A stretch of 64,000 bases of DNA, from contig CAUYUJ010009857.1 of NCBI GenBank assembly GCA_963575745.1, forward strand, positions 419,752-483,751. The letters run 5' to 3'. The notes under the pieces are model-generated. The model had not been told where the DNA came from. It saw nothing but the letters and a program-made list of their open reading frames with translations, and did no database searches. Positions 2,139 through 54,580 of the stretch are shown here, in pieces. The stretch comes from Prorocentrum cordatum (taxonomy: Eukaryota; Sar; Dinophyceae; Prorocentrales; Prorocentraceae). Position 1 is the stretch's first letter. Each line of letters starts with the position of its first letter. The position numbers and the translations under genes were made by a program.

Positions 2139-4655
2139 GGAGAGGATCGCCAACACCAACGACGTGGATTGCATGTGGCGCATCTTCATCGGCCAGGCGG
2201 AGACCAACATGATCGACGCATGCGGGCTCCTCCATGAGCACGACAGGTACGCAGGCCGAGGGCAGCGACCCTAGCTTGTGAGCACTTCGGCTACGGCACC
2301 GTCGCCACCGAGACTGCCAAGGGTCAAGCGGGCATCGACGTGGTGCAGGGCGATCGCCATCAGCCTCAGGGACGCTGCGCAGATCGAGCGCCCGCTCACA
2401 AGGCTGGGCGCGCTCCGTGCCTTGCGCAAGTTGGTCAGCAGGCCCCCGTCCGAGCTCAGCGAGTTGCAGCGCGCTATTCACGTGATAGCCACAGGAGCCA
2501 GCAGCTACTCCCTCCCGCAGCTGGACGTTCTCAGTGCCGCATGCTTCAGCTGGTCGGAGAAGATGGTCAAGACTGACATGGACCAGGCCTCCCAGAACTA
2601 CAACGAGTGGGTGCTGCACTCAGTGGCCACAGGCACAGGCGGCATCCACGCGGTCACCAAGATGGCGCAGAGCTGGAATGCGAAGCCCGCCAAGCCAGAC
2701 GGCGAGCCGCCGTCCACCATCCAGCAAAGCCTGCAGACGCTGGTGGACGAGTGGTCGGGTTACTGGGATGTGGCGGCACCGACTGCGCAGGAGCCTGCGA
2801 GGCACCACATCGCATGGCCACAAGATCTCGGAGAGCGCCCTGACAGACCTTCAGTTGCTGAGCTGAGGAAGGTAATCGCGTCTTTCAGGCCTCAGTCTGG
2901 GTCCAATTTCGACAGCTTGCGGCCCTGTGAGTTCAATCTCATGGATGACCAAGGCATCGAGGCGCTCATGGATCTCATCATGGCCATTGAGGCGAAGGCC
3001 GACTGGCCCAGCTCTTTCATCACGACAATGGCCTTCATCCCCAAGGCTGACGGGGGCCTTCGTCCCATTGCCCTTTTAGCTGCGGTGGTACGTGTGCACG
3101 GAAGGCTCAGAAGGCCCCTCATGCAAAAGTGGGAGAAAGACAATGACAGGCCTTATTGGTGGGCTTGTTCGGGTTGCGCTTGCGACAGAGCGGTGTGGCA
3201 GCAGCAGACGAGGTCAGAGTGGGTCGCGATGATGGCGGAGCTGCACCCTGACCAGGACTGGGCCTCTGCAAGCATCCTGCTCGACCTGTGGAAGGCGTTC
3301 GAGCAAGTCTCTCATCAAAGCCTGGTGCAAGCGGCTACCAAGTACGGGTTCCCGCTGTGGCTGGCCAAGTTGCAGATCTCGCTGTATCGTGCGCCGCGGG
3401 TCCTGCACTTAGACGGGTGCTGCTCGCAGGAGCTGCAGGTATACCAGACGGTGCTCGCAGGGGACGCGTTCGCCACGGGCTTCATGAAGCTCGTGCTGCT
3501 GCACCCAGTGGACGAGATGGTCGCAAAGTTCGGGGCTGTTACGCCAGCGATCGTGGTCGACGACCTGGTGCTGCAGCGCTGGGGCAGCACTGAGAGGGTG
3601 CAAGACGACCTGGTAGGAGCCACACGGCACCTCGTGCAGTATCTGAAGCAGGTGAAGCTCAAGATCGCCGTCAAGAAGTCCAGGGTCCTAGGCAACTCTA
3701 CTGGGGTCCGCTGCAATATCTCCAGGCGGCTGCTCAAGGTTGCTGGGGTGCTTGGCGCGCGCCACGCGCGGATTCTCGGCACCGACCATGCTGAAGGGCG
3801 ACGAGCAGCTAGGGCAATTCGACAGCAGCGGTTCGCCAATGTCGAGTTGCGCATGGGTAAGGTGCGCAGTTTTCTGGGGCTACGGAAAGGGCGCACCGCG
3901 GCTGCCATGGTGGCCTACACTGGCTTACACCCTTCGGCCCTCCACGGCGTCAACTGCGCAGGCCCCAACGAGAGCGAGCTGTCCAAGATGAGGTCCATCA
4001 CTGTCAGAGCCGTGGAAGCCAGACCAGCAGGCAAGGGCGCTACTGCTGTGCTGATGCTCTCAGGGGCCAGGAACCTGGACCACATTTTCGCCGCCGCGCT
4101 TGGGCCCGTGATGATGCTGGCTCGGGCGGTCTGGGAGCAGTGGGTCCCGACGTCGATGCTCAAGTCAACCTTCGAGTGGAACGTGAAGGTGGCCAAGAAC
4201 TGGTCCGGCGTGCGCGGACCGATCGGAGCCGCGGTCAAGTCGCTGCAGAGGATCGGCTTCGCGCTGCCCGCCTTCGCTGACTGGGTCTCCGAGGCTGGCG
4301 AGAAGCTCAATCTGGCAGTTCACTCGCCGTGGGCGGTGGGGCAGATCGCCGCCAAGTCCGTCGAGCACTGGCAGCTGGCGCAGCTGGCAAAGTCAACGCG
4401 CTACGGGATTTTCGAAGCTAGGGGGGTCTTCTTGCAGCAAGTCCGACGGTGGATCTTGTCGGGGAGGGGCTCGACCAAGGTGGCGCGGAGCTGGAGGACC
4501 TCGACCCCTAGCGAGGCTGGGTGCGCCAGATCATGCCTGGTTGACGGTCAGTGGCAAAATGAGAGACGCTTTGCTGCAGGCCTCAGCTCGTGCTCGGTAT
4601 GCTCGCTGTGCCCAGACGAGCTAGGCGCGCTGTGGCATCGGCATATCGGAGTGCC
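2139..4655 (+). pseudogene. Reverse transcriptase of the array-inserted retrotransposon
   Basis: Frame 1 is open from 2139 except for a TAG at 2272-2274, just before an artificial GTG start at 2278. RT motifs are clear: fingers IPKADGGLRPIAL (about 3040), motif A LLDLWKAFEQVSH (about 3280), motif B region LAGDAFATGFMKL (about 3450), motif C AIVVDDLVLQ (about 3545, with Val where Tyr is usual but both Asp kept), then the K-rich motif D region. A cysteine/histidine cluster (CSVCSLCPDELGALWHRH) near 4590-4645 ends this part. The reading frame then moves by one base near 4652 into the RNase H part. This family is, from memory, common in dinoflagellates. It is inactive as it stands. Confidence 0.85.
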
Positions 4656-5440
4656 AAGACGCATGGCCCAACCTCTCGCTGCTGATGGAGCTGGAGCGCT
4701 TCAAGGGCATGGGCGACTCCACCACGATCAGGACGCTGTTCGAGCGGCTGTGGTTACCCGAGCCACGCGCAGGGTGGGCGCCGCCTGGCGACGACCTCCT
4801 AGCACATGCGCAGTGGATCAAGGGCTACGAGGAGGGCATGCCGTTTGCTGTTCCCGACTTGTACGCCGACGGCGCCTTCATCGACGGGGGAACCCAGATC
4901 GCCTGTGCTGGTTGTGCAGTGGTGGCCCTTCCACCAAGTGGCGACTGCGTGGGCCCAGGGCCAGGGTCGGCCACGCGAGCCCTCGCCTCGCCTCTGGCGG
5001 GGCCGCTGCAGTCTATCGACGGGAGCGAGCTGCTGGCGCTCCTCCTGCTCCTCAAGTTCAGTCTACCACCAGTGGCGGCTTATTTTGACGCAGCATTTGT
5101 GGTGGACGGGATCAACGCCCGAGGGCCAAAGGCCACTACGAGCAGCAAGTCAGCATGGGCCGAGATTTGGGTCCGAGTATGGCACGCAATTCAGGACTTC
5201 GGAGGGCTCGGCGACGGCGGCCTGCGGGTTGTGAAGGTCAAGGCCCACGCCTCGGTGCAGCACGTGCAGGAAGGGCTGGTCGCAGCCAGGGCGAGGCGAG
5301 GCAACACTGAAGCTTATCGGTGTGCCAAGTTCATCGCCAGCAGCACGGGGGCCACCGACGAGATCAGGCAGGTGATTCGTGCGAGGCAGACCATGCTTGA
5401 TGCGGCGCTCTTCTGGTCGCGATTGCTGGGAGCCAGGCGG
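4652..5440 (+). pseudogene. RNase H domain of the same retrotransposon
   Basis: After the frameshift, frame 2 reads CQDAWPNLSLLMELERFK and then a type-I RNase H: LYADGAFIDGG (first Asp, about 4860), IDGSELLALLLLL (Glu, about 5020), AAFVVDGINARG (Asp, about 5090) and VKVKAHAS (about 5236). These four landmarks in this order and spacing define the fold. The frame must change again before 5440 to continue into the C-terminal region. It acts, in the intact element, to remove RNA from the cDNA hybrid. Confidence 0.75.
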
Positions 5441-6435: not shown

Positions 6436-6591
6436 GGGGCCTGGCTTGGCAGCAGCGGGCTGGCCCTTTTGGCCAGCTCGTTTCCCTTGCTGCTCGGCTG
6501 CCCGAGGCTTTCGCCAGCCGCCGACAGCTGGCCTGGGCAGCTGATCGAACCTGAGCTCACGCCGCGCGAGCTTGGCCACACCTAAAAAAAA

Positions 6592-6990
6592 GGCCCCAGT
6601 GGCACAGTTCGCATGCGTCCACCCCGCCCACCGCATGCCCATTTAGGTACACCCCTCCCACGTTTCGTGGCCCCATAGGGAGCTCCACCGAAGGCCCCAG
6701 TGGCTGCGCCCGCATGCCGCCCCCGCACCCATTTCGGCACACCCCTCACACGTTTCGCGGCCCCATAGGGAGCTCCACCAACGGCCCCAGTGGCAGGGTC
6801 CGCATGCCGCCCCCGCACCCATTTCGGCACACACCTCCCACGTTTCGTGGCCCCATAGGGAGCACCACCGAAGGCGCCTGTGGCTGCGTCCGCATGCCTC
6901 CCTACCATCCATTTCGGCGCACCCCTCTTTCCTCACACGTTTCGTGGCCCCTGGCCCCACATCGAGCTCCACCGAAGGCCCCAGCGGAGA
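6592..6990 (+). repeat. Resumed tandem array, ~90-bp variant, about four units
   Basis: The same GTGGCCCCATAGGGAGC core recurs at about 6668, 6757 and 6848 with CATGCCGCCCCCGCACCC in place of the longer spacer, so units are shorter than before the insertion. A last unit near 6945 is diverged. An isolated half-unit lies at 7130-7165. Confidence 0.85.
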
Positions 6991-28844: not shown

Positions 28845-29392
28845 CGTTTTGTGGCCCCGTAGGGAGCTCCGCCGAAGGCTCCAGTGGCAGGGTTCGCATG
28901 GCGGCCTCGGGCCATTTCGGCACACCCCTCACGAGGATCGTGGCCCCATAGGGAGCTCCAGCGAAGGTGCCAGCGGCAGGGTTCGCATGGCGGCCTCGGG
29001 CCATTTCGGCACACCCCTCACGAGGATCGTGGCCCCATAGGGAGCTCCACGAAGGTGCCAGCGGCAGTGTTCGCATGGCGGCCTCGGGCCATTTCGGCAC
29101 ACCCCTCACGAGAATCATGGCCACATAGGGAGCTCCAGCGAAGGCGCCAGTGGCAGGGTTCGCATGGCGGCCTCGGACCATTTCGGCACACCCCTCACGA
29201 GAATCATGGCCACATAGGGAGGTCCAGCGAAGGCGCCAGTGGCAGGGTTCGCATGGCGGCCTCGGGGCATTTCGGCACACCCCTCACGAGGACCGTGGCC
29301 CCACAGGAGCTCCACCGAAGGCGCCAGTGGCAGGGTTCGCATGGCGGCCCCGGGCCACTGCGACACACCCCTCACAAGGATCGTGACTCCAT
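28845..29392 (+). repeat. Tandem array, ~91-bp unit, six to seven copies
   Basis: Units start at GTGGCCCC.TAGGGAGCTCC and run through GGCAGGGTTCGCATGGCGG and CATTTCGGCACACCCCTCAC. Starts are near 28849, 28940, 29030, 29119, 29209 and 29298; a diverged half-unit is at 29385. This is the same family as the 1.5-kb and 6.6-kb arrays with a different middle. The long plus and minus ORFs across it are repeat artefacts. Confidence 0.85.
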
Positions 29393-29393
29393 A

Positions 29394-29690
29394 GTTGTGC
29401 TGCTTCAACAACCGCGCCTGGGCGTCGTAATCCGCCTTGTCGACGTGCAACGCCACCTCCTTCCTCATGGCTCTCAAAGCCCTCTCCTGCTTCTGCTCCT
29501 CGGTCAGAGGGACGCCGTCCTTGCCGTCGTCGGCGCCCGCGAAGACGGCCACGAACGTGTTCCTGAGCATGTCGGGCTCCGGCGGGAAGCCGTGGCCACA
29601 TGGGGAGCGCGGACGAAGATGGTATTCACAATTGTTGTATTCACAACTGCATATGGTTGGGTCCTTCGCCAGGCTAATTTGTTGTTGTTC
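29394..29690 (-). CDS. Possible coding segment within the array region, function unknown
   Basis: One minus-strand frame is open from about 29690 to the array and reads ISLAKDPTICSCEYNNCEY, then MLRNTFVAVFAGADDGKDG, LTEEQKQERALRAMRKEV and HVDKADYDAQARLLKQHN. The charged, helix-like composition of the second half looks like real protein. The first part is encoded by a 42-bp sequence shared with LINE-A (19424-19465). The middle contains a degenerate array core (CGTGGCCACATGGGGAGC), so the open frame may be a chimera. No family is recognised. Confidence 0.35.
29638..29679. repeat. 42-bp sequence shared with LINE-A (19424-19465)
   Basis: The two 42-bp copies differ at one position and include GCATATGGTTGGGTCCTTCG. 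Flanks are unrelated. In both places the minus strand encodes ISLAKDPTICSCEY. Confidence 0.85.
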
Positions 29691-37164: not shown

Positions 37165-37291
37165 CCCTTCCATTTTCTTATACGTGTATATGTTTGTTTG
37201 TACGTATGTATGGAGGTGTGTATGTTTGCATTTATGTTTGTATATGTACGTTTTCACACACACACGCATATATATATATATATGTACATAC
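37165..37291 (+). repeat. TATG/CA/TA microsatellite at the left insertion edge
   Basis: GTATG words, then CACACACA, then a TA run at about 37268-37282, ending GTACATAC directly before repeat A1. The TA tract continues on the other side of the element at 43793. Confidence 0.85.
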
Positions 37292-37383
37292 ATTGGCGGT
37301 TTGTAATTAAACACGTTGTGCAGAAGTCAGCAAGCCGACAGGGGGCGGACGTGGGTCCGTCACCGTTTTTGCTCAAGCTTTTA
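37292..37383 (+). repeat. Terminal repeat A1 of the split-repeat element
   Basis: 92 bp starting ATTGGCGGTTTGTAATTAAA and ending GCTCAAGCTTTTA. One difference from A2 (G versus A in GGGGGCGG/GGGGACGG). Its last third holds the spliced-leader-like sequence. Confidence 0.9.
37357..37377 (+). promoter_or_regulatory. Spliced-leader-like sequence in A1
   Basis: The 21 bases from CCGTCACC to GCTCAAG match the last 21 bases of the conserved dinoflagellate spliced leader (CCGTAGCC...GGCTCAAG) at 17 of 21 positions, including both ends. It ends 22 nt before the first ATG of the element (37400). This fits a genomic copy made from a trans-spliced mRNA, or a site mimicking the leader. Confidence 0.6.
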
Positions 37384-37399
37384 ATTTGCGGCCTCGCCT

Positions 37400-39041
37400 A
37401 TGCAATCCCTCGGGCACATTCTCTCGGGGGCACGCCGCCTGGCCGCCATCGCCGGCGGGGTCGCATCGCAGTGGGCGAGCAAGGCCGGCATTTGTGTGGT
37501 GATCGCCAACAGCATCGGTGACCTGAGGGTCGCCTTCATCTTTCTCTTCGCCGCAGGGGTGTTCCTGGGCTGCATCGGAGGGTGTCTCTGCTGCAAAGGT
37601 CTGGCTCTGAGCCATGGCCTCCTGGCGAGCTGGTCACAGGATCGGAGTCTTGTGGAAGGGCGGAGAGGACTGGCAGACGCGCGCGCTCCTTTGTCCTGGT
37701 ACTACCGCCGACGCCGAGAGCGATCTCCAGATGACTGGCTTGAAAGCAGCGGGGAATAACGGCAACATATGGTACGCTCTCACACCAGACGGGGACGTGT
37801 ACATTCACGTGCTGGAACCCCCGGGAGTCCGGGGATCGGCGCTGTGCGATCAGATGGGCCTGCCCGAGCGGAGCGGGCCCTTGCAGTTCGGGAGGACGTG
37901 GCGAGCAGGCGGCAGGATCTACGGACAGGAGTGGACCCCGACGCCAGAGGAGTTCGTCGACGCGCTGCAGTTCGCTCTGGGCGGCTCCTTGTTCGAGGCA
38001 GCCCCGCAGGTGGCGGGCAAGACGGTCTCGGTGCTGCGACGGATGAGCAAGAAGGGGCCGCTCCCAGCTGGCGCGGCCTTGGCTGGGGGAGCTCCTCCGA
38101 GTGGCTTTGTGCGTGGCTCGGGTGCCCTACCGTCCGCGGTGGGGATGCGCTGGCAGGTTCAGGCCGCCAGTGGCCCAACACCCGAGCGCCGCCCGCTGCA
38201 GGACTACGACGTGGACGAGTACTGCACCGCGGGCGGCTTCGCGCTGGCATCTCAGGAGGAGGAGCTGCTCCTGGTGAGGGAGGTCGAGAAGTCCTCGCCA
38301 GAGGACGACACGGAGGTGGACGCCAGGCTCTTGCCGCTCGTGGAGGTCGAGGGCGTTCGCAAGCGGCACTTCAAGGACTCGCTCAAGGGGCTCACCGAGG
38401 CGGCCTGGCGAGAGTGGCCCGTGCGCGGGCCGCGTACGACTGTCTGGTGTGCCAACTTCGTGGGTGACCAGGACAGTCACCCACGCTCGAGACACACTAA
38501 GTGGAAGGCCGAGTGCGGTCTCACGACTGCCGACGTCGGTGTTTCGGAGCATGAGTTGTGTATGCGAGTGCTGGAGCTGGCCATCACCTACGACCAATTG
38601 AACATCGGGGAGTTGGCCAGCTTCGAGCTCATGCTCAGGCGCGCGCAGATGACGGAGTGGAGATACAGAGAGCGCGTGCTGGGACGTCCACTCCTGGACG
38701 ACACGGCGGAGGGCGAGTTCTTCTACATGGGGGCGGCGGAGACGAGGGGGCTGCTCATGGTGGCCCCGGAGCTGCAGGCCCACATCTCGGACGAGCTGCA
38801 CCGCGAGTCGGCGGTGCTCAAGGAGAGGCGCAAGCTCCGCGAGGAGCGCCTGGCGTCCCGCGGGCTACCACCAGCTGGCGGCGGCGGGGGCTCGGCGTCC
38901 GCGGCAGCGATGGAGACGAAGATCAAGCAGCAGGCGGCGGAGCTCTCGAGGCTCCAGGCGAAGCTCAACCACGGCGGCGGGGGCGACCCAGCCGCGGGGG
39001 AGAGGCAGGCTGCGGCCAAGGGCCGCGGCCGAGGCACCTAG
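37400..39041 (+). CDS. gag-like ORF1 with N-terminal membrane segment (one +1 frame step)
   Basis: Two overlapping ORFs, 37400-37759 and 37614-39041, appear to be one protein. The first has an N-terminal membrane helix (VAFIFLFAAGVFLGCIGG, residues ~45-62) and a WYYRRRRERSPDDW segment. The second continues with NNGNIWYALTPDGDVYIHVL, later VRGPRTTVWCANFVGDQ and ELCMRVLELAITYDQLNIGE, and ends in a coiled, Lys/Arg-rich tail. The likely join is in a G4 run at 37752-37755, where dropping one G makes the frames continuous. The ATG at 37614 is directly preceded by an in-frame TGA, so it may not be a real start. The GPRTxxWC and TYDQLN blocks are, from memory, typical of dinoflagellate retroelement ORF1. 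A capsid or nucleic-acid-binding role is inferred. The stop TAG lies 8 nt before the next ATG. Confidence 0.65.
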
Positions 39042-39049
39042 TCGCCCTG

Positions 39050-41515
39050 ATGATCGCGCCGCGGGAGCTCCTCCCTCTGAGGGGCCCTGCGGCTTCAGGC
39101 GCCTCGCCCTCCGTGGCGGGCGTCAGCCGGGCTGTGCGCTCGCGTGTTCGTCGTCGCGCAGCCTGCTCGTCCTGGGCCAATGAGATCATCGACACAGTCA
39201 ACAATTTGTACTTCCACGGCGAGGTACAGCAGCATCACTCCGTCTCAGCTGGGCAGCAGCTCGCCCTGGACCACATCCGTGACGTGGTGCAGCGAGCTGG
39301 ACCGCCCATGATCGAGCCCGCGGCAGCCTTTCGAGTGCTGTGCGGATCGGTGCCAGGGTGCACTGAGCCCTCGGCAGAACATTCACCCTATCGACGAGGC
39401 GCAGTCTCGTTGCCGGCTCCTGGAGCGGACCTTGCTCGTGGCGACGTCTGTCTTCGAGGGCCGGCATTGCAAATGTGGACAGGGTGGCGAGACTGTCTCT
39501 TGCACCCCAACCCGGACCTCTCCGGGGCAGTGCGGCCGTACTCTGACCCCAAGCTGATTCGGGACAGCGGCGCGTACGCCGAGTTTTTGGTGGACATGGC
39601 ACGTTCAGGGCTCGTCTCCTTCACGAGCGAGGGGCCATCCACCGTGGGAGTCTTCTTCGTTAAGAAAGGTCCAGATCGTCTTCGACTCATCCTGGACACT
39701 CGACGAGCAAACAAGCTGTTTTTGGATTCTTGCCACACCCAGCTCTCTACACCATCGAGCTGGTCCTTTCTGTACTTGCCACCCGAGGCGGAGCTGATGA
39801 TGTCTCAGACCGACGTCAACAACGCGTTCTATCGCATCCAGCTCCCCCCCGGCATGAACGACTATTTCATCCTGCCCAGCATCGACGCCAAGTGGATCTC
39901 CGAGGCCGCCCCCGAGCTGGCCCCTGGTCTCCCCGCGGGCATCCGCATCTCCCCTCGCGTGGAGGTGCTGCCCATGGGGTTCAACTGGGCGCTGTTCTTC
40001 TGCCAGGAGATGTTCCGCAACGCCGCAGAGGACGCTGGCTTCGCTGACGGGCGGATGTTCCTGGACCGCCACTCGGCCCCCGACATCACCACCCAGCCAG
40101 GCGCCGCCGTGTACGTCGACGGCGTGGCCGTGGTGGGGGCGGGCCTGGAGGCGGTCGAGGCCGGCGGAGTCGCCGTGGCCAAGCAGCTGGAGGAGCGCGG
40201 CCTCCAGGTCAAGGGGGTCGAAGGCACCTCGGACTCCCAGACCTTCACAGGGATGGAGTTCGATCGGACCTCCGGCCGCATCTCGCTCAGCCGCGAGAGG
40301 ATCTGGAGGCTGCGCGCGGCCCTGCTGTTTGCTGCGGACCAGCGCTACTTGACTGGACGCCAGATGCGGCGGCTGGTCGGCCACTACACGTGGAGCGCGA
40401 CTCTGCGGCGTGAGCTCCTCAGCGTCTTCAGCAGCGTCTACGCCTGGGCGGAGAAGGCGGGCGACAAGAGGTGGCGCCTGTGGCCTTCGGCCGAGCGGGA
40501 GCTCCGCCAGGCCGCCGCCCTCGTGGCCTTCGCCTTCGCGGACCCCAAGCGCCCGTTCCACGCCACGGTCGTGGCGACCGATTCCTCAGGCGCTGGGCTG
40601 GACGACGCCGGCGGCTACGGCGTGGTCACGCAGGAGTGGCCCGTGGAGAAGGTCCGGCGCTGCTGCGGGCATGCCGAGAAGTGGCGCTACGGGGTGCAGG
40701 GGCTCGTCGCGGCCAGGGCGGCCGCGCTGGGCAGCCCCGCCGACCCCAGCTCGCCTCGCCCGACGGCGCAGAGCGGCGAGAGGTGCACAGACTTCGAGAG
40801 CATGACGCGAGACGACATCGGGGCCTTCGAGAACTGGAAGCTGGTGTGCCAGGGCCGACGGGCCCGGGCCGAGGGCATCCTGAGGACCGAGGGCCGAGCA
40901 TGCATGATCGGCCTCCGTCACGAGCTGAGGTCCACGAGCACGCACGGAAAACGTATACTCTTTCTTGTGGACAACATGAGTGTGGTATTGAGTTTGGGTA
41001 AGGGTAGATCCAGCAGCCATCAGATGAACCGAACATGTCGTGAGCTTCTGTGTCTGTCAGTTGTTGCCAATCTCCAGGTCGTGGTGAGATGGGTCGCCTC
41101 TGAGTTGAATCCATCCGACCGCGCGTCCAGACTCCCGGGCTCAGCCATCTCGCTGGGCGGGGGTGGGCTTCGCGCGGCGGGGGGCGATGCTGCGCCGTCC
41201 GAGGCCGTGCTCGCCAGCCGCTTCGATGCCGAGCTGGAGAGCGCGGCCCGCAGCCTTGGGCCCGCCTTTGGCGGGGACGCCTGCGGCCGCCCCCTCGCCG
41301 GCCTGGGGGACCAGCTCGCTGCTGAGGAGGCCAGGCTCGGCACCGCCGCCGCGGAGGCCGGTGAGCTCAGCGACAGCTCCTCCAGCTCGGGGGAGAGCTG
41401 GCCAGCCGGCCCCAGCGGCAGCGACGGCCAGGCGCCGCCACGCACGGGGCGGGCCGACTGCGACACGGTCGACTCGAGCAGCATCTCACGATTTGCGAGC
41501 CCGCCGCGGACAGCA
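39050..41515 (+). CDS. Reverse transcriptase-RNase H of the split-repeat element
   Basis: Start ATG at 39050, 8 nt after the ORF1 stop. DIRS-type RT motifs: STVGVFFVKKGPDRLRLILD (residues ~198-217), motif A SQTDVNNAFYRIQL (~252), motif B VLPMGFNWALFFCQEM (~305), motif C AAVYVDGVAVVG (~352). Motif C is YVDG, so the second Asp of YxDD is Gly; the first is kept. RNase H follows: VVATDSSGAG (~508), EGRACMIGLRHELRS (~613), LFLVDNMSVV (~636), WVASELNPSDRASR (~680), giving D-E-D-D. The C-terminal ~120 residues are Ala/Gly/Ser-rich. Frame 2 stays open to 42232, but past about 41515 it is a shadow of the recombinase. The enzyme copies element RNA into DNA and removes the RNA strand. Confidence 0.85.
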
Positions 41516-42527
41516 GCGACGGCAGCACCAGGCGCGGGAGATCGCCGAGGCCCGCCTCCAGATGGCCAAGATAGGGCCTCGCTCCCGCGCTCAGTACCAG
41601 AAGTTTCACCAGGCCTTCCTGGAGTGGAGCAGCCAGGAGGGTCAGCCCCTGGACACCGACCTCCAGATCGACCGGGCCCTCAGCAGGTACATGGACTACC
41701 TGTACTACGAGGGCTTCAACGCGGACGCGGGCGAGAAGGTGCTGGCGGCTGTGGCCTTCCACGGCCCAGTGGAGGGCCTGGAGCTTCCAGGAGCTCGCCG
41801 GGCGCTGGCGGGGTTCCGGCGCCGGGCGAGCGCGAGGACCCGCAGCCCCCTGCCGCTGGCGGGCGTGATGGCCATCGTGGGTGCAGCAGCGGCCGACGGC
41901 CAGCTCCCCTTTGCCCTGGGGCTTGTGCTGGCGTGGGAAGCCTACCTCAGGCTGCCGTCCGACCTCGTGAGCATGGTGGGCGCCTCTCTGGTCAGGCCAG
42001 CCGCCCGGAGCCCCCAGGCGTGTTGGGGCCTGCTCCTGTTTCCTCAGGAGGGGGAGGCGCGCAGCAAGATGGGGCACTACGACGAGGGGGTCATGCTGGA
42101 CGGCCAGTTCGGATCCACGCTAGCGCCTTTCCTTCGCTGGCTGAAGGCCCAGACCGCCGACGCCAGCCCGCTGTGGTCCTTCTCGAGCGCCACCTTCAGG
42201 CGCCTGTTCAACGAGTACGCCGCGAAGGTTAGCCTCGGAGGCAAGAACCCTTACCAGGTCAGGCACGGGGGAGCCTCTCTGGACGCCCTAGAGTGCCGGC
42301 GCAGCCTGAAGGAGATCCAGGAGCGGCTCCGCCACCTGTGCGAGTCCAGCACCCGTCGGTACGAGAAGGGGACCAGGTACCTGGCCGAGGTCAACAGCCT
42401 CGACAGCCGGGCCCGGTCCTACGGCGAGCAGGTCCTCAGGCAGCTCGACGGGGTGCTCAGCGGGCGGGTCCGCCTCCCGCCGCCGCCGGCCCTCGCCGGC
42501 GCCGCGGGCTGCGGACGGGTGCCGTGA
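41490..42527 (+). CDS. Tyrosine recombinase of the split-repeat element
   Basis: Frame 3, +1 relative to the RT frame. The domain starts with QAREIAEARLQMAKIG (an internal ATG at 41562 is a possible start) and RSRAQYQKFHQAFLEW, an N-terminal core-binding helix bundle with SRYMDYLYYEGFNADAG. The catalytic half has WEAYLRLPSDLVSMVG (first Arg, about 41950), NPYQVRHGGASLDALE (second Arg region, about 42250), LRHLCESS (His) and TRRYEKGTRY with Tyr at 42358-42360 as likely nucleophile. This R-R-H-Y order matches tyrosine recombinases of DIRS-like elements. The frame overlaps the RT frame from 41163 to 41515, so expression needs a +1 shift or reinitiation. The stop TGA at 42525-42527 overlaps the next start. 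Confidence 0.8.
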   Translation, partial: DLRARRGQQRRQHQAREIAEARLQMAKIGPRSRAQYQKFHQAFLEWSSQEGQPLDTDLQIDRALSRYMDYLYYEGFNADAGEKVLAAVAFHGPVEGLELPGARRALAGFRRRASARTRSPLPLAGVMAIVGAAAADGQLPFALGLVLAWEAYLRLPSDLVSMVGASLVRPAARSPQACWGLLLFPQEGEARSKMGHYDEGVMLDGQFGSTLAPFLRWLKAQTADASPLWSFSSATFRRLFNEYAAKVSLGGKNPYQVRHGGASLDALECRRSLKEIQERLRHLCESSTRRYEKGTRYLAEVNSLDSRARSYGEQVLRQLDGVLSGRVRLPPPPALAGAAGCGRVP

Positions 42528-43354
42528 TGCGCCAAGGCGACGCCCTAGAGGCGGTGGAGCGAGCCTCGGACACCAAGGTGATCCGCCGCCTCCGTCAGGG
42601 GCTCGCTCGGGCCAGCAGGCGAGGCCGGCGCCGTGGGCAGGTGTTTCTTGACTTGTTCAGCGGTGCCGGCGGCGTCGCCAAGGCCCTCGAGCGCCACGGC
42701 GACAACGGTTGCCTCCAGATCGACATGGGGGCCGACGTAGCTTTCGATCTCACCCGCCGCTCGGCCCAGCAGCTCATCTTGGGCTGGATGGCCAGCAGGC
42801 GCGTGCGAGGGCTCTGGATCGCTTTTCCATGCACGACTTGGTCTGCAGCCTCACGGCGCACGTACCGTCGCCCCGTAGAGCTCCGTGGCCGAGCGAATTT
42901 GACAGTAGAGCAAGAGCACAAAGTGAGCCTTGGTAATAAGACCCTTGCCGCCACTGTCCGTTTCATTAGAGCTGCAATCATGAGACATATCCCAGTTGTG
43001 ATCGAGAATCCTCTCACAAGTATGGCCTGGCAAGTCCCCGAAATGAAGAGGCTAATGGCACACCGCAGTTGTAAGATAGCAGTTGTGGATCAGTGCATGT
43101 TTAACACCCCCTGGAAGAAGCCCACAACAATTGTAGGCTGGAGTGTTTCTGAACCGCCCGCCCCTCTCGTCCAAAGGTGTCGTGGGAAGTCTCTGTGCTG
43201 CAAGACCCTCCGGCCTCACCTCGTCCTCGAAGGTAGCCGGCGGACCGCCTTGGCTCAGGCCTATCCGCGGGGGCTGGCGGAAGCAGGAGCTCGATGGCTG
43301 GTCACTTCAGCCGATAGTATCGAGCGCGCACACGTAGGGAGGTTGTTGATTTAA
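42527..43354 (+). CDS. Cytosine-methyltransferase-like protein of the split-repeat element
   Basis: 275 codons from an ATG that shares bases with the recombinase stop (TGATG at 42525-42529). SAM-binding motif I is GQVFLDLFSGAGGVAKAL (residues ~36-53), an acidic strand QIDMGADVAFDL follows, then IAFPCTTWSAASR (Pro101-Cys102, position of the catalytic Cys in C5 methyltransferases) and HIPVVIENPLTSMAW (~155-169, like the ENV motif). No DPPY-type N6-adenine motif is seen and no clear C-terminal target-recognition domain. It is shorter than most C5 enzymes. Retrotransposon-borne cytosine methyltransferases have been reported from dinoflagellates; DIRS elements elsewhere carry a different, adenine-type domain. 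Substrate and activity are inferred. Confidence 0.7.
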   Translation: MRQGDALEAVERASDTKVIRRLRQGLARASRRGRRRGQVFLDLFSGAGGVAKALERHGDNGCLQIDMGADVAFDLTRRSAQQLILGWMASRRVRGLWIAFPCTTWSAASRRTYRRPVELRGRANLTVEQEHKVSLGNKTLAATVRFIRAAIMRHIPVVIENPLTSMAWQVPEMKRLMAHRSCKIAVVDQCMFNTPWKKPTTIVGWSVSEPPAPLVQRCRGKSLCCKTLRPHLVLEGSRRTALAQAYPRGLAEAGARWLVTSADSIERAHVGRLLI

Positions 43355-43449
43355 TTATCTCGTGCTCTGAGCTGCAGTTGCTAATTTAACCCTTGCTCTG
43401 TAAGAATGTGAGTGATTGCGGCACGGCCAGTAACATGAATGGGCTGTGG

Positions 43450-43552
43450 GGGGCTTTCCCCGAATAATCCTTCTGCCGACTCGGGCCCCAGAGACGGCTC
43501 GGTCGCAAGTCTCGTGGCAGCATAGGTTCTCCTGGTTGCAAAAACAGTGCAC
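43450..43552 (+). repeat. Internal repeat B1
   Basis: 103 bp from GGGGCTTTCCCC to AAAACAGTGCAC, directly abutting A2. The 95 bp between the methyltransferase stop and B1 contain no gene. Confidence 0.9.
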
Positions 43553-43644
43553 ATTGGCGGTTTGTAATTAAACACGTTGTGCAGAAGTCAGCAAGCCGAC
43601 AGGGGACGGACGTGGGTCCGTCACCGTTTTTGCTCAAGCTTTTA
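43553..43644 (+). repeat. Internal repeat A2
   Basis: 92 bp, one base different from A1. The B1-A2 junction (CAGTGCAC|ATTGGCGG) has the form expected of joined circle ends. A second spliced-leader-like copy is at 43618-43638. Confidence 0.9.
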
Positions 43645-43689
43645 CCACCTCCTCCTCTCCTCCTCCGCTTTCTTGCACTCTCACGGTGT

Positions 43690-43792
43690 GGGGCTTTCCC
43701 CGGATAATCCTTCTGCCGACTCGGGCCCCAGTGACGGCTCGGTCGCAAGTCTCGTGACAGCATAGGTTCTCCTGGTTGCAAAAACAGTGCAC
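43690..43792 (+). repeat. Terminal repeat B2
   Basis: 103 bp, about three substitutions from B1, ending CAGTGCAC right before GTATATATA. A 45-bp pyrimidine-rich spacer separates it from A2. Confidence 0.9.
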
Positions 43793-43793
43793 G

Positions 43794-43859
<66 letters not shown>

Positions 43860-50905: not shown

Positions 50906-53900
50906 ATGACCGTGTATGCAAGTTTGATTTTCTTCATATCATCCATATTTTGTGCGCGCGGCCTCGCGCGCCACTCCATATTAACACCATCAGTTGCTCC
51001 GTGGGAGCGCATGGATGGCGCGCCTCTCCACGGCCTGGCGGTTGTCCCTTTCCAGATCCCTGGCGCTGGAGTCCACGTGCCTGTCCATGCGAATAGTTCG
51101 TCCAGCCAGAATAAGAAACGGAGGTTGGACGAGACAAGCATCAGCCCGAGAATGCTTCAGGATATAGTTCAGATGTCGCCCGTGCCCTTCGTCCTTAGCC
51201 CGATCTACAAGCACGTGGACGCTTTCATCGGGGCAGTGCACACAAATGGCAAGTATGATGTTCCTCATGGCGATGCGGTGTATACGGTTGCCAAGCGCAT
51301 GTTCGACGATTCTGTGTCGTTTCAAATGATGACCAAAACGAGCGAGGCGGAGCTGGCAGGTTCATCTCGCATGAAGACGGTCAAGATCACCAGAAAGTTG
51401 GCGGAATTTGCAATTGTATATGACAGACTTCGCCGCCATAGCTTAGAGAAGTCTTTGGTATCCTGCGACAGGGTGAAGCCACTTTACTATATAGAGTGCG
51501 AGTTTTACGACGAGAGTCCGATGCCGTTCAAACTCAGAGATTGCAGTTTCAACAACCATATTGAGCTACTTCAGGACTTCGCTGCAGTGTTGAACCCCAA
51601 GTGCGTCAAGGATGGTGTCGTGATTCCTTCGGAGCTCCCAGCGTTCATCCAGCAAAGTCGCACTGAAGCGTCAATTGCCAAGATGCTCCAAGTTGATTCT
51701 CGATATGCATGCTTGTTGAAGGTAGAGAGCGGCGGTGCCAAGCGATACATCTTCGTGCATTCCTCTACCCTCAACCACTTGGTAGTAATTGATCGCAACA
51801 CGGGCGAGGCCACTCGCGGGGCCCTCAGATTGCTCTGGTCAGTGAGTTTGGCGCACAAGCTGCATGAACAACGGGTTCGTCTCGTCACGACCGACCAGGG
51901 TGGGGGTTGCATCAAGTGCGAACGTGTCATTGCAGAAAAAGACAGACAAGGCTGGCAGCACCTACACCTGCACTGCGAAGTTCACATCACCAGCTTGGTG
52001 CACAAGAACTCGTTCAAGCTTGTCACAGAGAATGTTACTGGGATGGTGAGGTGCGCGCTGTCACTCAAGCTGGCGGGACACATGGGTTCATTTCGACAAG
52101 TTCTTCGCGAGGTCATCGGGAGCATGATTCTGTTCAAAGTTGGAGCTCCTCCGCCAGAGGCAGTTTTCTACAGGAGGATGGCGCTCAGGCTGTTGAGCTC
52201 ATCGGGCTCGCTCGTCATCCAGAAGTTCGTTGCCTTGAACAAGTTTCCGAATGGCGATTGGAGGAATCGATCCAACGTGGAGGTGTATGTACCAGCGTTT
52301 CCTGACGGTGTCGACCTCGACGCGTACAAGGCGAAGTACAAGACATCAGTGACCGAAGGTTTGTTGTTCGTATTCGCGTCCTCTGCTTTTAAGCTGTACC
52401 CGCGGGACAAGTGGACGGGTGCAGACGCGTGCATCGATCAATTCTTGTCACAGGAGCTATGTCACGGGCTTCTGACTAAGGCGTGCCCCATCTGGGCGAA
52501 GAGCATGGGCGCGAAGGCTTCTAGCAATGCATCGGCGGCGATGCGCGCCGCCCCGCACGCCGAAGTACCGCTGCTCATGCTGCCCTCTGGCGATGGTGGA
52601 GACGGCGACGGCGAAGCTGGCGAGGGCGAAGGTGACCCTGCAACCGTCGGGGATGACAGTGGGGGTGCCGACGGAGATCGACGCGACGAGGACTTGCGCC
52701 AGCAGCCAGTGTGCCAGTTCAGGGCAGAGGAAAACGCGAAGGACAGGCAAGTCGGCATCAATTGGGTCTTGAGCAAGCCGATGACACCGCTTATCATCAT
52801 GAGGTTGACGATGGTTCCACTATCCGACATCATGGGCCGCCTTCTGGACCTGGGGAGTCCAAAATGGGAAAGGGAGCAGCGGGTTCGCGAGTTGGCCTCT
52901 GCATCGAATGCTGGACCTCTGGCTGGGAACATTACTACTGGCAGGGACTATCCAATTGTGGTCGCCGCCGAGGGGACGATAGAGGACAAGTTTTTCGAGA
53001 AGCTAGAAACGCTACTCACCCAACCTGCCATGTGGTCACTCGTTTTGGAGGAGGAGTGCACGGAGCAGACGAATGCGTTAGCGTTCAAGATGTTATCTCG
53101 CGCTGGGTGCTTGGTGGCAGAGCTCGTGCGGGAATTGCATCAGAAGTACCCCTACCGTTTGTTCTTGGTACTGCACCACCCGCACATGGCCGCGACGATC
53201 GAGTCGGAGAGCGAGTGCGTCCTCGGCAAGTTCACGAAGCAGTTCCTGCAAGACAACCCCGACCTCAGCGCAGACGACGCCAGGATGCGCCTGCTGTCGA
53301 TCGCTGCCATGGCGAAGCTGGATATCTCCCACATCGAAGCCCTCCACGCCAGCATTCGGCGCCTCGTGGTCGCTGCGAGCCACCAGACCCACACCATAGA
53401 GATCGCTGCCGCCTCGGCGGAGTGGGTTGCCTCCCGCTGCAGGTCGCGGGCGAAAAACTCTGCAGGCCTTACTCGGACGACCTTCGTGGACGCAGACAGC
53501 GCAGAGCCAGCGGAGGACGATGAGCCTCGCAAGCCTCGGGGGGGCGGCGGCGCCTGGAGAGCTTTCGTTGCCATGGGCGAGCCTGGGGTTTTCAAGGATT
53601 TCGCGCAGCTGGCGGTGCAATACCGACAACTCGACGCCGACCAGAAGGAGAAGTACATCACGGCTGGACGCGCTGCGACGGCCGCGCACCGAGAGCATCC
53701 AGATGTCAGCTCATTCGGGAACAACTCGAAGCAAGAGGCACGACTGATTGCCGCAGAGCGTCGGGCCCAACTCACACTTCAATTGGGCAGCCTTGCGAGT
53801 AGCGAGGGCCCGTCGATGGAGGTTGTTGCAGCGAACCAGATCGTCGCCACGCAGGTTGACAACGCATCTGCGCTGGCTGCTGCTAGATCCGCAACGTACA

Positions 53901-54580
53901 ACATTGGCAGGATGAAGGCCAAGGACTGCAGGGATAAGGTCTCCAAGTTGAAAACCTTCGCGGTGGACGAGGCAGCTCTTCGACTCGCTGTCGGCGACGT
54001 CCCTCCTCTCGCAGCTGTCGCTGAAGATCTTCAGCGCCTACCTGAGCGAGCGTGCTCCGACCTGGAGTTCGTCCCCGACATCGGCTCGACGGCTGCGAAG
54101 GCCACCTACGCGTCGCAGACGACGCGAAGTTCGGGAGGCACCTCGAATACGGCAGCTCTGACGGCGAGTTGGTACCGTCGTCACAACATCGTGTGCCATG
54201 ACGATTGCGAGAGGATTGCAGACCAGCCGAAGGACTTCAACAAGCAGATGCGTTGCTGGAAGTTCGGGCGGTGTATTTGCAACGGCGAGGGCAAGAAGCT
54301 CTACTCTATTCGCAATGCACTGCTACGCGTGATGAAGAAGGCTTTTCCGCGCAAGTCGACACAGTTTCCTTTACTGGTGAATGGGAGTATCTTCGCGGCG
54401 ATCTTTCCGCCTCTACCTGCCGATCTAGTCGAGCTCGGCGCGGAGCGAGATTGGTTGGAAACCGATGAGTTGCTCGTGGTCCACGTGGGCGTCCTGTACC
54501 TGAAGCCCTACAGGCCGACGTACCACAAGATGCGCCTGGAGCGGGTTCGCGATGACGGCATTTGGGACTTGCAGGCTTGA
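50906..54580 (+). CDS. Intact 1,224-codon ORF: transposase-like core with HMG-box-like segment
   Basis: An uninterrupted ORF, the longest credible one here. The first 25 residues are hydrophobic (SLIFFISSIF), but a nuclear-type NKKRRLDE follows at ~70, so Met36 (MDGAPLHG) is a plausible alternative start. Residues ~80-320 are alpha/beta. At 325-360 come VRLVTTDQGGG (Asp330) and HLHCEVHI (Cys357-x2-His360), then CALSLKLAGHMGSFRQVL. An Asp followed by CxxH is the hallmark spacing of several DDE transposase families (hAT, Mutator and relatives), so an RNase-H-fold transposase origin is possible; I cannot place the final acidic residue with certainty. An acidic linker lies at ~560-600. Residues ~878-926 (GGGAWRAFVAMGE to ADQKEKYITAGRAATAAH) resemble an HMG box. 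The C terminus has CHDDCERIADQPKDFNKQMRC and CWKFGRCIC. From memory this is an expanded dinoflagellate family without assigned function. Confidence 0.75.
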   Translation: MTVYASLIFFISSIFCARGLARHSILTPSVAPWERMDGAPLHGLAVVPFQIPGAGVHVPVHANSSSSQNKKRRLDETSISPRMLQDIVQMSPVPFVLSPIYKHVDAFIGAVHTNGKYDVPHGDAVYTVAKRMFDDSVSFQMMTKTSEAELAGSSRMKTVKITRKLAEFAIVYDRLRRHSLEKSLVSCDRVKPLYYIECEFYDESPMPFKLRDCSFNNHIELLQDFAAVLNPKCVKDGVVIPSELPAFIQQSRTEASIAKMLQVDSRYACLLKVESGGAKRYIFVHSSTLNHLVVIDRNTGEATRGALRLLWSVSLAHKLHEQRVRLVTTDQGGGCIKCERVIAEKDRQGWQHLHLHCEVHITSLVHKNSFKLVTENVTGMVRCALSLKLAGHMGSFRQVLREVIGSMILFKVGAPPPEAVFYRRMALRLLSSSGSLVIQKFVALNKFPNGDWRNRSNVEVYVPAFPDGVDLDAYKAKYKTSVTEGLLFVFASSAFKLYPRDKWTGADACIDQFLSQELCHGLLTKACPIWAKSMGAKASSNASAAMRAAPHAEVPLLMLPSGDGGDGDGEAGEGEGDPATVGDDSGGADGDRRDEDLRQQPVCQFRAEENAKDRQVGINWVLSKPMTPLIIMRLTMVPLSDIMGRLLDLGSPKWEREQRVRELASASNAGPLAGNITTGRDYPIVVAAEGTIEDKFFEKLETLLTQPAMWSLVLEEECTEQTNALAFKMLSRAGCLVAELVRELHQKYPYRLFLVLHHPHMAATIESESECVLGKFTKQFLQDNPDLSADDARMRLLSIAAMAKLDISHIEALHASIRRLVVAASHQTHTIEIAAASAEWVASRCRSRAKNSAGLTRTTFVDADSAEPAEDDEPRKPRGGGGAWRAFVAMGEPGVFKDFAQLAVQYRQLDADQKEKYITAGRAATAAHREHPDVSSFGNNSKQEARLIAAERRAQLTLQLGSLASSEGPSMEVVAANQIVATQVDNASALAAARSATYNIGRMKAKDCRDKVSKLKTFAVDEAALRLAVGDVPPLAAVAEDLQRLPERACSDLEFVPDIGSTAAKATYASQTTRSSGGTSNTAALTASWYRRHNIVCHDDCERIADQPKDFNKQMRCWKFGRCICNGEGKKLYSIRNALLRVMKKAFPRKSTQFPLLVNGSIFAAIFPPLPADLVELGAERDWLETDELLVVHVGVLYLKPYRPTYHKMRLERVRDDGIWDLQA

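Follow-up and report, generated by a model that had tools for sequence, protein, structure and literature searches.

A probable DIRS-order retrotransposon with PAT-type split direct repeats and a divergent, C5-like methyltransferase in Prorocentrum cordatum

The question raised by this locus is what kind of mobile element, if it is one element at all, is bounded by the repeats of a 6.5-kb unit in Prorocentrum cordatum, and whether its combination of parts is new. The DNA analysed (the window, 64,000 nucleotides) carries the unit on the forward strand; all coordinates refer to the window, and all features except the flanks are on that strand. We believe that the unit is, very probably, a DIRS-order retrotransposon with PAT-type split direct repeats, moving by the cycle proposed below. 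Unusual in it are the divergent methyltransferase, the VDG motif in the reverse transcriptase (RT), the insertion into microsatellites and, in the A repeats, a stretch that matches the spliced leader of dinoflagellates, a match of unproved meaning.

The element extends from the outer end of A1 to the outer end of B2 (37290..43792), and the other complete copies have the same ends. A1 (37290..37383) is followed by the coding frames, B1 (43446..43552), A2 (43551..43644), a pyrimidine-rich spacer of 41 nt seen in the sequence (43645..43685) and B2 (43686..43792); B1 and A2 overlap by two bases (43551-43552) and form an internal B-A junction. The order A1-ORFs-B1-A2-spacer-B2 had been claimed in an earlier note on this DNA, with identities of 91/92 for A and about 100/103 for B; the repeat coordinates bear out the order, and the measured identities are 93/94 and 103/107. 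With A1 and B1 as BLAST queries within the window, no other match was better than E 0.18. The flanks are target sequence, a CA/TA simple repeat on the left (37255..37289) and a TA simple repeat on the right (43793..43859). Many simple and tandem repeats surround the element in the window; six Rfam matches to miRNA families, all under the gathering score, are located in the flanking simple repeats.

The search of the P. cordatum genome with the A repeat, a check named in the earlier note, yielded 26 matches at 14 loci, and the family comprises at least this number of loci. Alignment of the copies showed the whole order A1-B1-A2-B2 with identical ends at 12 of the 14, which upholds the claim of a full 6.5-kb unit; the remaining two (A1 only, or A1 with part of B) sit in stretches with runs of N. 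Considering the abundance of simple and tandem repeats in the window, the layout might be taken for a chance or composite assemblage in which old retroelement frames are surrounded by unrelated repeats; however, the identical unit with identical ends at 12 loci refutes this reading, to which we give practically no credence. The first two to four bases of A1 vary between copies; in L010, L013, L016, L018 and L021 the bases at the left end are unlike A2 and are therefore considered partly target-derived. Copy-specific changes are common to paired repeats: they occur in both B repeats of L015, in both A repeats of L017 and L022, and at both B ends of L010 and L013. The divergence of the A and B repeats is 2.5% in the window copy, which is within the spread of the 12 copies (1.0 to 6.5%), so that the suggestion of a young element holds in relative terms only.

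The four gene frames do not lie side by side, as had been supposed. The gag-like frame (37614..39041) has no family in the Pfam scan and is 35% identical (E 1e-52) to the N-terminal part of P0004, a protein of a related family. The pol frame (39050..42232) includes RT and RNase H up to about 41400 and then stays open across the tyrosine recombinase (YR), the frame of which is nested in it (41562..42527, open from 41109) and was assigned by sequence, profile and fold matches. The rest of the pol frame (42233..43354, first ATG at 42527) contains the C5-like methyltransferase, which can be recognised from about 42630 onwards. The stop that separates the two parts (42230-42232) is private to the window copy, being absent in all 11 readable copies among the 12 others. 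In the register of the window, 11 of the 12 other copies have no pol stop across the YR overlap; the total is one stop vs 19.6 expected, in counts that exclude insertions and deletions and under a null model that disregards shared descent. One stretch carries two coding frames, YR within pol, and pol ends with the methyltransferase at its C-terminus; P0005 and P0006 are found in one protein. In YR elements, the frame of RT/RNase H and that of YR often overlap extensively (PMC6681497, cited for Ngaro/VIPER).

The YR stop and the methyltransferase start could also be read as a coupled pair (TGATG, 42525-42529). We do not favour this, though re-initiation may occur: 7 of the 12 other copies preserve the pair (9 the ATG), and in the copies that lack it pol continues into the methyltransferase stop-free in the window register. 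The description of the element as near-intact is correct for the gag, RT/RNase H and YR frames, which are open, but not for pol, which is cut by its stop before the methyltransferase; none of the examined copies has all frames open. dN/dS is below 1 in all 48 comparisons, and all four element proteins are under selection.

RT and YR are only weakly recognisable by sequence. The RVT_1 match in Pfam (E 0.0033) is under the curated cut-off; the RT profile had no match in PDB at E 0.01, and its search of viral contigs confirmed no relatives. In all 13 loci the motif VDG replaces the usual YxDD; the second Asp is missing, and RT activity is therefore not to be presumed. The positions taken as the palm D, the VD and four acidic residues of RNase H are invariant in five diverse members. 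For YR, there is a XerC-like match in PDB (E 0.0069), and P0004 matches Phage_integrase (E 1.3e-4, under the curated cut-off); the Pfam scan of the window frame gave no match. The top 24 matches of the fold search are all tyrosine recombinases, at E 0.042 or worse and from a model with mean pLDDT of 54.7. The catalytic pattern of YR is present in most copies; at 4 of 13 loci Cys takes the place of the tyrosine. At E 0.1, Pfam detected no DDE integrase in any of the four frames. The repeat order together with the RT and YR matches confirms the earlier assignment to tyrosine-recombinase retrotransposons with split direct repeats.

The type of the methyltransferase is less easily settled. Two of five members match PF00145, under the cut-off and with E 0.026 at best, and one of the five matches N6_N4_Mtase (E 0.027). 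Families of phage DNA methyltransferases match better (E 3.3e-9 at best); Dnmt3 is absent among the 21 PDB matches of the profile, the lower rows of which include M.RsrI, not known to be a C5 enzyme. The protein carries an ENP motif; C5 methyltransferases usually have ENV. Judging by these comparisons, we consider the methyltransferase C5-like, divergent and not assignable to Dnmt3. None of the 7997 candidates scored from the protein database reached E 0.001, NCBIfam gave only dcm (E 0.27), and no relatives were confirmed by the profile in viral and genome contigs or found by the protein search of phage records. The fold search (mean pLDDT 61.8) had no match at E 0.001 among PDB or viral models; its top PDB rows are mostly other Rossmann-type enzymes, while phage DNA methylases occupy rows 2 and 3 of the viral list (E 0.011 and 0.017). 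These model-based results deserve little weight. There is no sign of CpG decay through self-methylation, the observed/expected ratio being 0.92 in the element vs 0.91 and 0.87 outside; changes to TpG/CpA affect 385 of 6742 at CpG sites (two cytosines each), and changes of other cytosines to T affect 377 of 14142.

The earlier note knew of no description of this combination of parts; it has, however, been published for SymbioDIRS-Dnmt3 of Symbiodinium, which has this layout with a C5-type methyltransferase, and the class is therefore not new (PMC5890265). Both elements have a dinoflagellate host, A-coding region-B-A-B repeats, a C5-type or C5-like methyltransferase in one pol ORF with RT, YR in an ORF of its own, and purifying selection on the methyltransferase (PMC5890265). 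It can be argued from these common features that our element is no more than SymbioDIRS-Dnmt3 as it occurs in Prorocentrum, the Dnmt3 domain in its pol having diverged strongly, and is nothing new in kind. We consider this rather unlikely: the Symbiodinium methyltransferase, according to its published description, groups with Dnmt3 and is detected by PF00145 (PMC5890265), whereas that of P. cordatum approaches PF00145 only under the cut-off, lacks Dnmt3 among its PDB matches and is better matched by phage families. The methyltransferase of DIRS-class elements elsewhere is reportedly of the Dam-like adenine type (PMC5890265); in contrast, the P. cordatum element has no Dam-like Pfam match. The PAT/Ngaro label stands in its first half, as the element shares with PAT (Pat1, Toc, Kangaroo) RT, MT, YR and split direct repeats A1-B1-A2-B2 (PMC4157794); it does contain a methyltransferase, as PAT elements do, though a C5-like one. 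Ngaro is ruled out because it lacks a methyltransferase, as does VIPER (PMC4157794).

Of 12 insertion sites, 10 are in microsatellites of alternating purines and pyrimidines; the exceptions are L019, outside any repeat, and L009, in a non-alternating ATG repeat. No target-site duplication is evident in the flanks, most clearly at L019, most sites being simple repeats. Simple repeats are common locally, such a run being present also in 22 of 111 control windows, and the bias could reflect survival or assembly instead of a choice by the recombinase. We find this improbable, considering that the excess is at the junction itself, that an alternating run crosses the joined flanks at 8 of 11 sites vs 1.8% of random window places, and that the junction sequence GTGCACAT alternates likewise.

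The cycle we consider most likely builds on what the copies show (the anatomy, shared ends, nested frames, selection, paired-repeat changes and target bias); we infer the RNA ends, the circle, the template role of B1-A2 and every enzyme activity. The RNA would begin inside A1 and end inside B2, and would be translated into a gag-like protein and a pol protein that contains RT, RNase H and, last, the methyltransferase, with the recombinase made from the frame nested inside pol. RT would copy the RNA, with the internal B1-A2 as the template that supplies the outer parts absent from A and B, and a circle with a B-A junction would therefore form. The recombinase would exchange the B-A junction with a short core resembling it, mostly within microsatellites of alternating purines and pyrimidines and without target duplication; the methyltransferase would probably methylate cytosines in the new DNA.

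It is tempting to place the RNA start at a stretch of A that resembles the dinoflagellate spliced leader (sequence as printed in PMC6616646) at 17 of 21 positions, both in A1 (37357..37377) and in A2 (43618..43638). In this proposal, which we regard as doubtful, a leader-derived stretch marks the start, new DNA anneals there to A2, and the outer A is then copied. The stretch ends 6 nt short of the end of A, and from its first base inwards A1 and A2 differ more densely (20 in 27 nt vs 26 in 65 nt, 12 pairs); against the proposal, the differences between B1 and B2 show no matching step of the kind expected at an RNA end. We lean somewhat towards a stretch unrelated to the spliced leader, either a coincidental likeness or an ordinary promoter or RNA-start element. 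The stretch was spotted by eye before testing, 4 of 300 shuffled leaders reached 17/21 somewhere in the window, and A1 and A2 of the window deviate identically from the leader, which is therefore not renewed from the host in each cycle, as fresh splicing would imply. Nonetheless, chance is opposed by the position so near the end of A and by the shuffles: none of 3000 shuffles of A1 exceeded 15/21, none of 3000 shuffled leaders exceeded 16/21 within A1, and in the two copies that have diverged most A2 matches at 18/21, where 20,000 shuffles of that A2 gave 16 at most. Dinoflagellate genes often carry leader relics (PMC12014239, PMC3229502).

With this element, the association of DIRS retrotransposons with C5-like methyltransferases extends from Symbiodinium to Prorocentrum. 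The standard Pfam scan misses this methyltransferase, and elements counted as lacking one may therefore have one. From the aligned copies one can directly read the junction, the core and the site choice of the recombinase, and the family offers an RT lineage lacking the usual second Asp for activity assays. Under the proposal of a leader-derived RNA start, A would consist of an outer end and a captured leader, and leader capture would be a part of the replication of a dinoflagellate YR retrotransposon. Should the resemblance to the leader be genuine, trans-splicing would be tied to retrotransposition in dinoflagellates.

The split direct repeats claimed in the earlier note are present: A1 (37290-37383) and A2 (43551-43644) are identical at 93 of 94 positions, B1 (43446-43552) and B2 (43686-43792) at 103 of 107, and two bases are common to B1 and A2. 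Elsewhere in the window neither A nor B has a match better than E 0.18. The recommended search for other genome copies, performed with A as the query in the P. cordatum assembly (4,128,499,153 bases; the window lies on its contig C9857), gave at least 26 matches at at least 14 loci. The order A1-B1-A2-B2 is found at 12 of these loci, the window among them, and the complete copies end alike. At one of the 12 (L011/L012, contig C20778), A1 and A2 are separated by 24.5 kb, as if other DNA had later been inserted into the copy. L014 (A1 and part of B) and L020 (A1 only) contain runs of N in the examined stretch.

Complete copies start on the left with TTGGCGG or near variants, preceded by 1-4 variable bases, and end on the right with CAGTGC(A/G)C or near variants; no target duplication is evident at their flanks. 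L010 and L013 carry a subfamily variant at the internal junction and at both B ends, yet their A1 start is unlike their A2 start; the first A1 bases of L016, L018 and L021 are likewise unlike A2. A few left-junction bases therefore either derive from the target or changed after insertion. Variable bases at this junction are as expected for strand exchange inside a short core.

When the flanks are joined, 8 of 11 copies (L011/L012 was left out) have an alternating purine-pyrimidine run of at least 10 across the junction, versus 1.8% of random window places. A run of at least 12 lies within 30 nt on either side of 10 of the 12 sites, versus 22 of 111 control windows from the same flanks at a distance of 100-400 nt. 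The more stringent criterion of a perfect short repeat no more than 60 nt away gives 8 of 12 versus 2.8% of random places. The L009 site is an ATG repeat, and the L019 site is non-repeat DNA.

All 48 comparisons with the window copy give a dN/dS ratio under 1 (gag, 0.13-0.32; RT, 0.23-0.62; YR, 0.17-0.53; methyltransferase, 0.09-0.81); for RT, YR and methyltransferase, the least diverged copies yield the highest values. Third-position GC tracks gag to about 39000, pol to about 41400, YR to about 42600 and pol again to about 42900, beyond which it is flat. Stops in the other copies were counted in the register of the window copy, disregarding insertions and deletions. The pol frame is stop-free over 41402-42229 in 11 of the 12 other copies (L020 has one stop) and over 42230-42598 in all of them, while the third forward frame of the same copies has 5-9 stops. 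A null model with pol free, which ignores shared descent, gives 19.6 stops on average and 9 at minimum over 200 runs; taken by itself, the window sequence has a pol frame that is open to an only mildly unusual extent (2.5% of synonymous shuffles). A stop at 42230-42232 is private to the window copy, 11 of the 12 others being readable there (L022 is not). Considering this stop, and that the RT region falls into at least two aligned pieces in 11 of the 12 other copies and contains a stop in the twelfth (L019), no copy among those examined has all frames open.

Similar database proteins are of two kinds. P0001, P0002 and P0003 are probably gene models over the copies L016, L011/L012 and L021 rather than independent relatives; in these public P. 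cordatum “unnamed protein products”, predicted introns skip out of pol and into the frame of YR. P0004, another P. cordatum protein (45% identity), is an independent relative, as are P0005-P0008 (24-31%).

The usual RT motif is YxDD. In the RT of this family (39050-41554 in the window), VDG is found instead in 13 of 13 loci (preceded by Tyr in 11), YVDG in P0004 and YVDN in P0005-P0008, with VDD in none; judging from these sequences, VDG or VDN replacing VDD in the family and its distant relatives is perhaps a lineage-wide change. The acidic positions of RNase H are invariant among five diverse members, and most copies retain them. In YR, all 13 loci preserve the Lys and RLRH stretches, and the nucleophile is Tyr in nine and Cys in four. 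The identity of YR is supported by a XerC-like PDB match (E 0.0069), a Phage_integrase match in P0004 (1.3e-4, below the cut-off) and the fold matches of a low-confidence model, of which the first 24 in PDB are all tyrosine recombinases, with E values of 0.042 at best. In the methyltransferase, F-G, PC and ENP are invariant in five members; phrog_363 is matched by four of the five and phrog_757 by three (best E 3.3e-9), PF00145 by two (best E 0.026) and N6_N4_Mtase by one (E 0.027), and the profile's PDB matches consist mainly of C5 enzymes (E 0.045 at best). Given these motifs and matches, the C5 type appears to be the best reading.

Scoring for a hidden YR in the relatives covers 7 of 24 rows. 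P0005 and P0006 each hold RT and methyltransferase in one protein, and the linker scores as YR in the +1 frame (336 versus a maximum of 220.5 in P0005; 277 versus 204 in P0006; 8 shuffles each). The +2 frame slightly exceeds its shuffles in P0005 (194.5 versus 176) and shows no excess in P0006. P0007 and P0008 have RT, RNase H and methyltransferase in succession with a short linker between. A YR-like score is also given by the C-terminal part of P0007 when read in +1 (304.5 versus a shuffle maximum of 252), so that YR may follow the methyltransferase there.

Positions 68-88 of A resemble the dinoflagellate spliced leader. Among 26 A copies the match is 17/21 in 19, 16/21 in five and 18/21 in two, the latter being A2 of L021 and L022, the two most diverged copies. 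The match reaches at most 15 in 3000 shuffles of A1 and 16 in 20,000 shuffles of L022 A2; 3000 shuffled leaders reach at most 16 in A1, and 4 of 300 attain 17 somewhere in the window. Between A1 and A2 there are 20 differences in the 27 nt that run inwards from position 68, versus 26 in the outer 65 nt, a modest excess. In the window, A1 and A2 differ from the leader in identical ways, which contradicts a renewal of the stretch from trans-spliced RNA in every cycle. Leader relics borne by genes are described in passages of PMC6616646, PMC12014239 and PMC3229502; among open-licence PubMed Central papers, we found none treating DIRS, dinoflagellates and the spliced leader together.

The window also contains a 936-aa open frame at 2278-5088 (+) with RVT_1 (E 4.9e-7), another retroelement, tied to the element's family by no test made; related tandem arrays with units of roughly 90-101 bases at 1532-2136, 6590-6987 and 28845-29394; and a 1224-aa open frame at 50906-54580 (+) with no Pfam match at E 0.05.

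PAT, Ngaro and VIPER are defined in a section of PMC4157794, and a passage of PMC6681497 states that YR frames frequently overlap those of RT/RNase H. SymbioDIRS-Dnmt3, as presented in PMC5890265, shares this repeat layout and likewise has its methyltransferase in pol. The class of the element is already known, and the element is a variant of that class.
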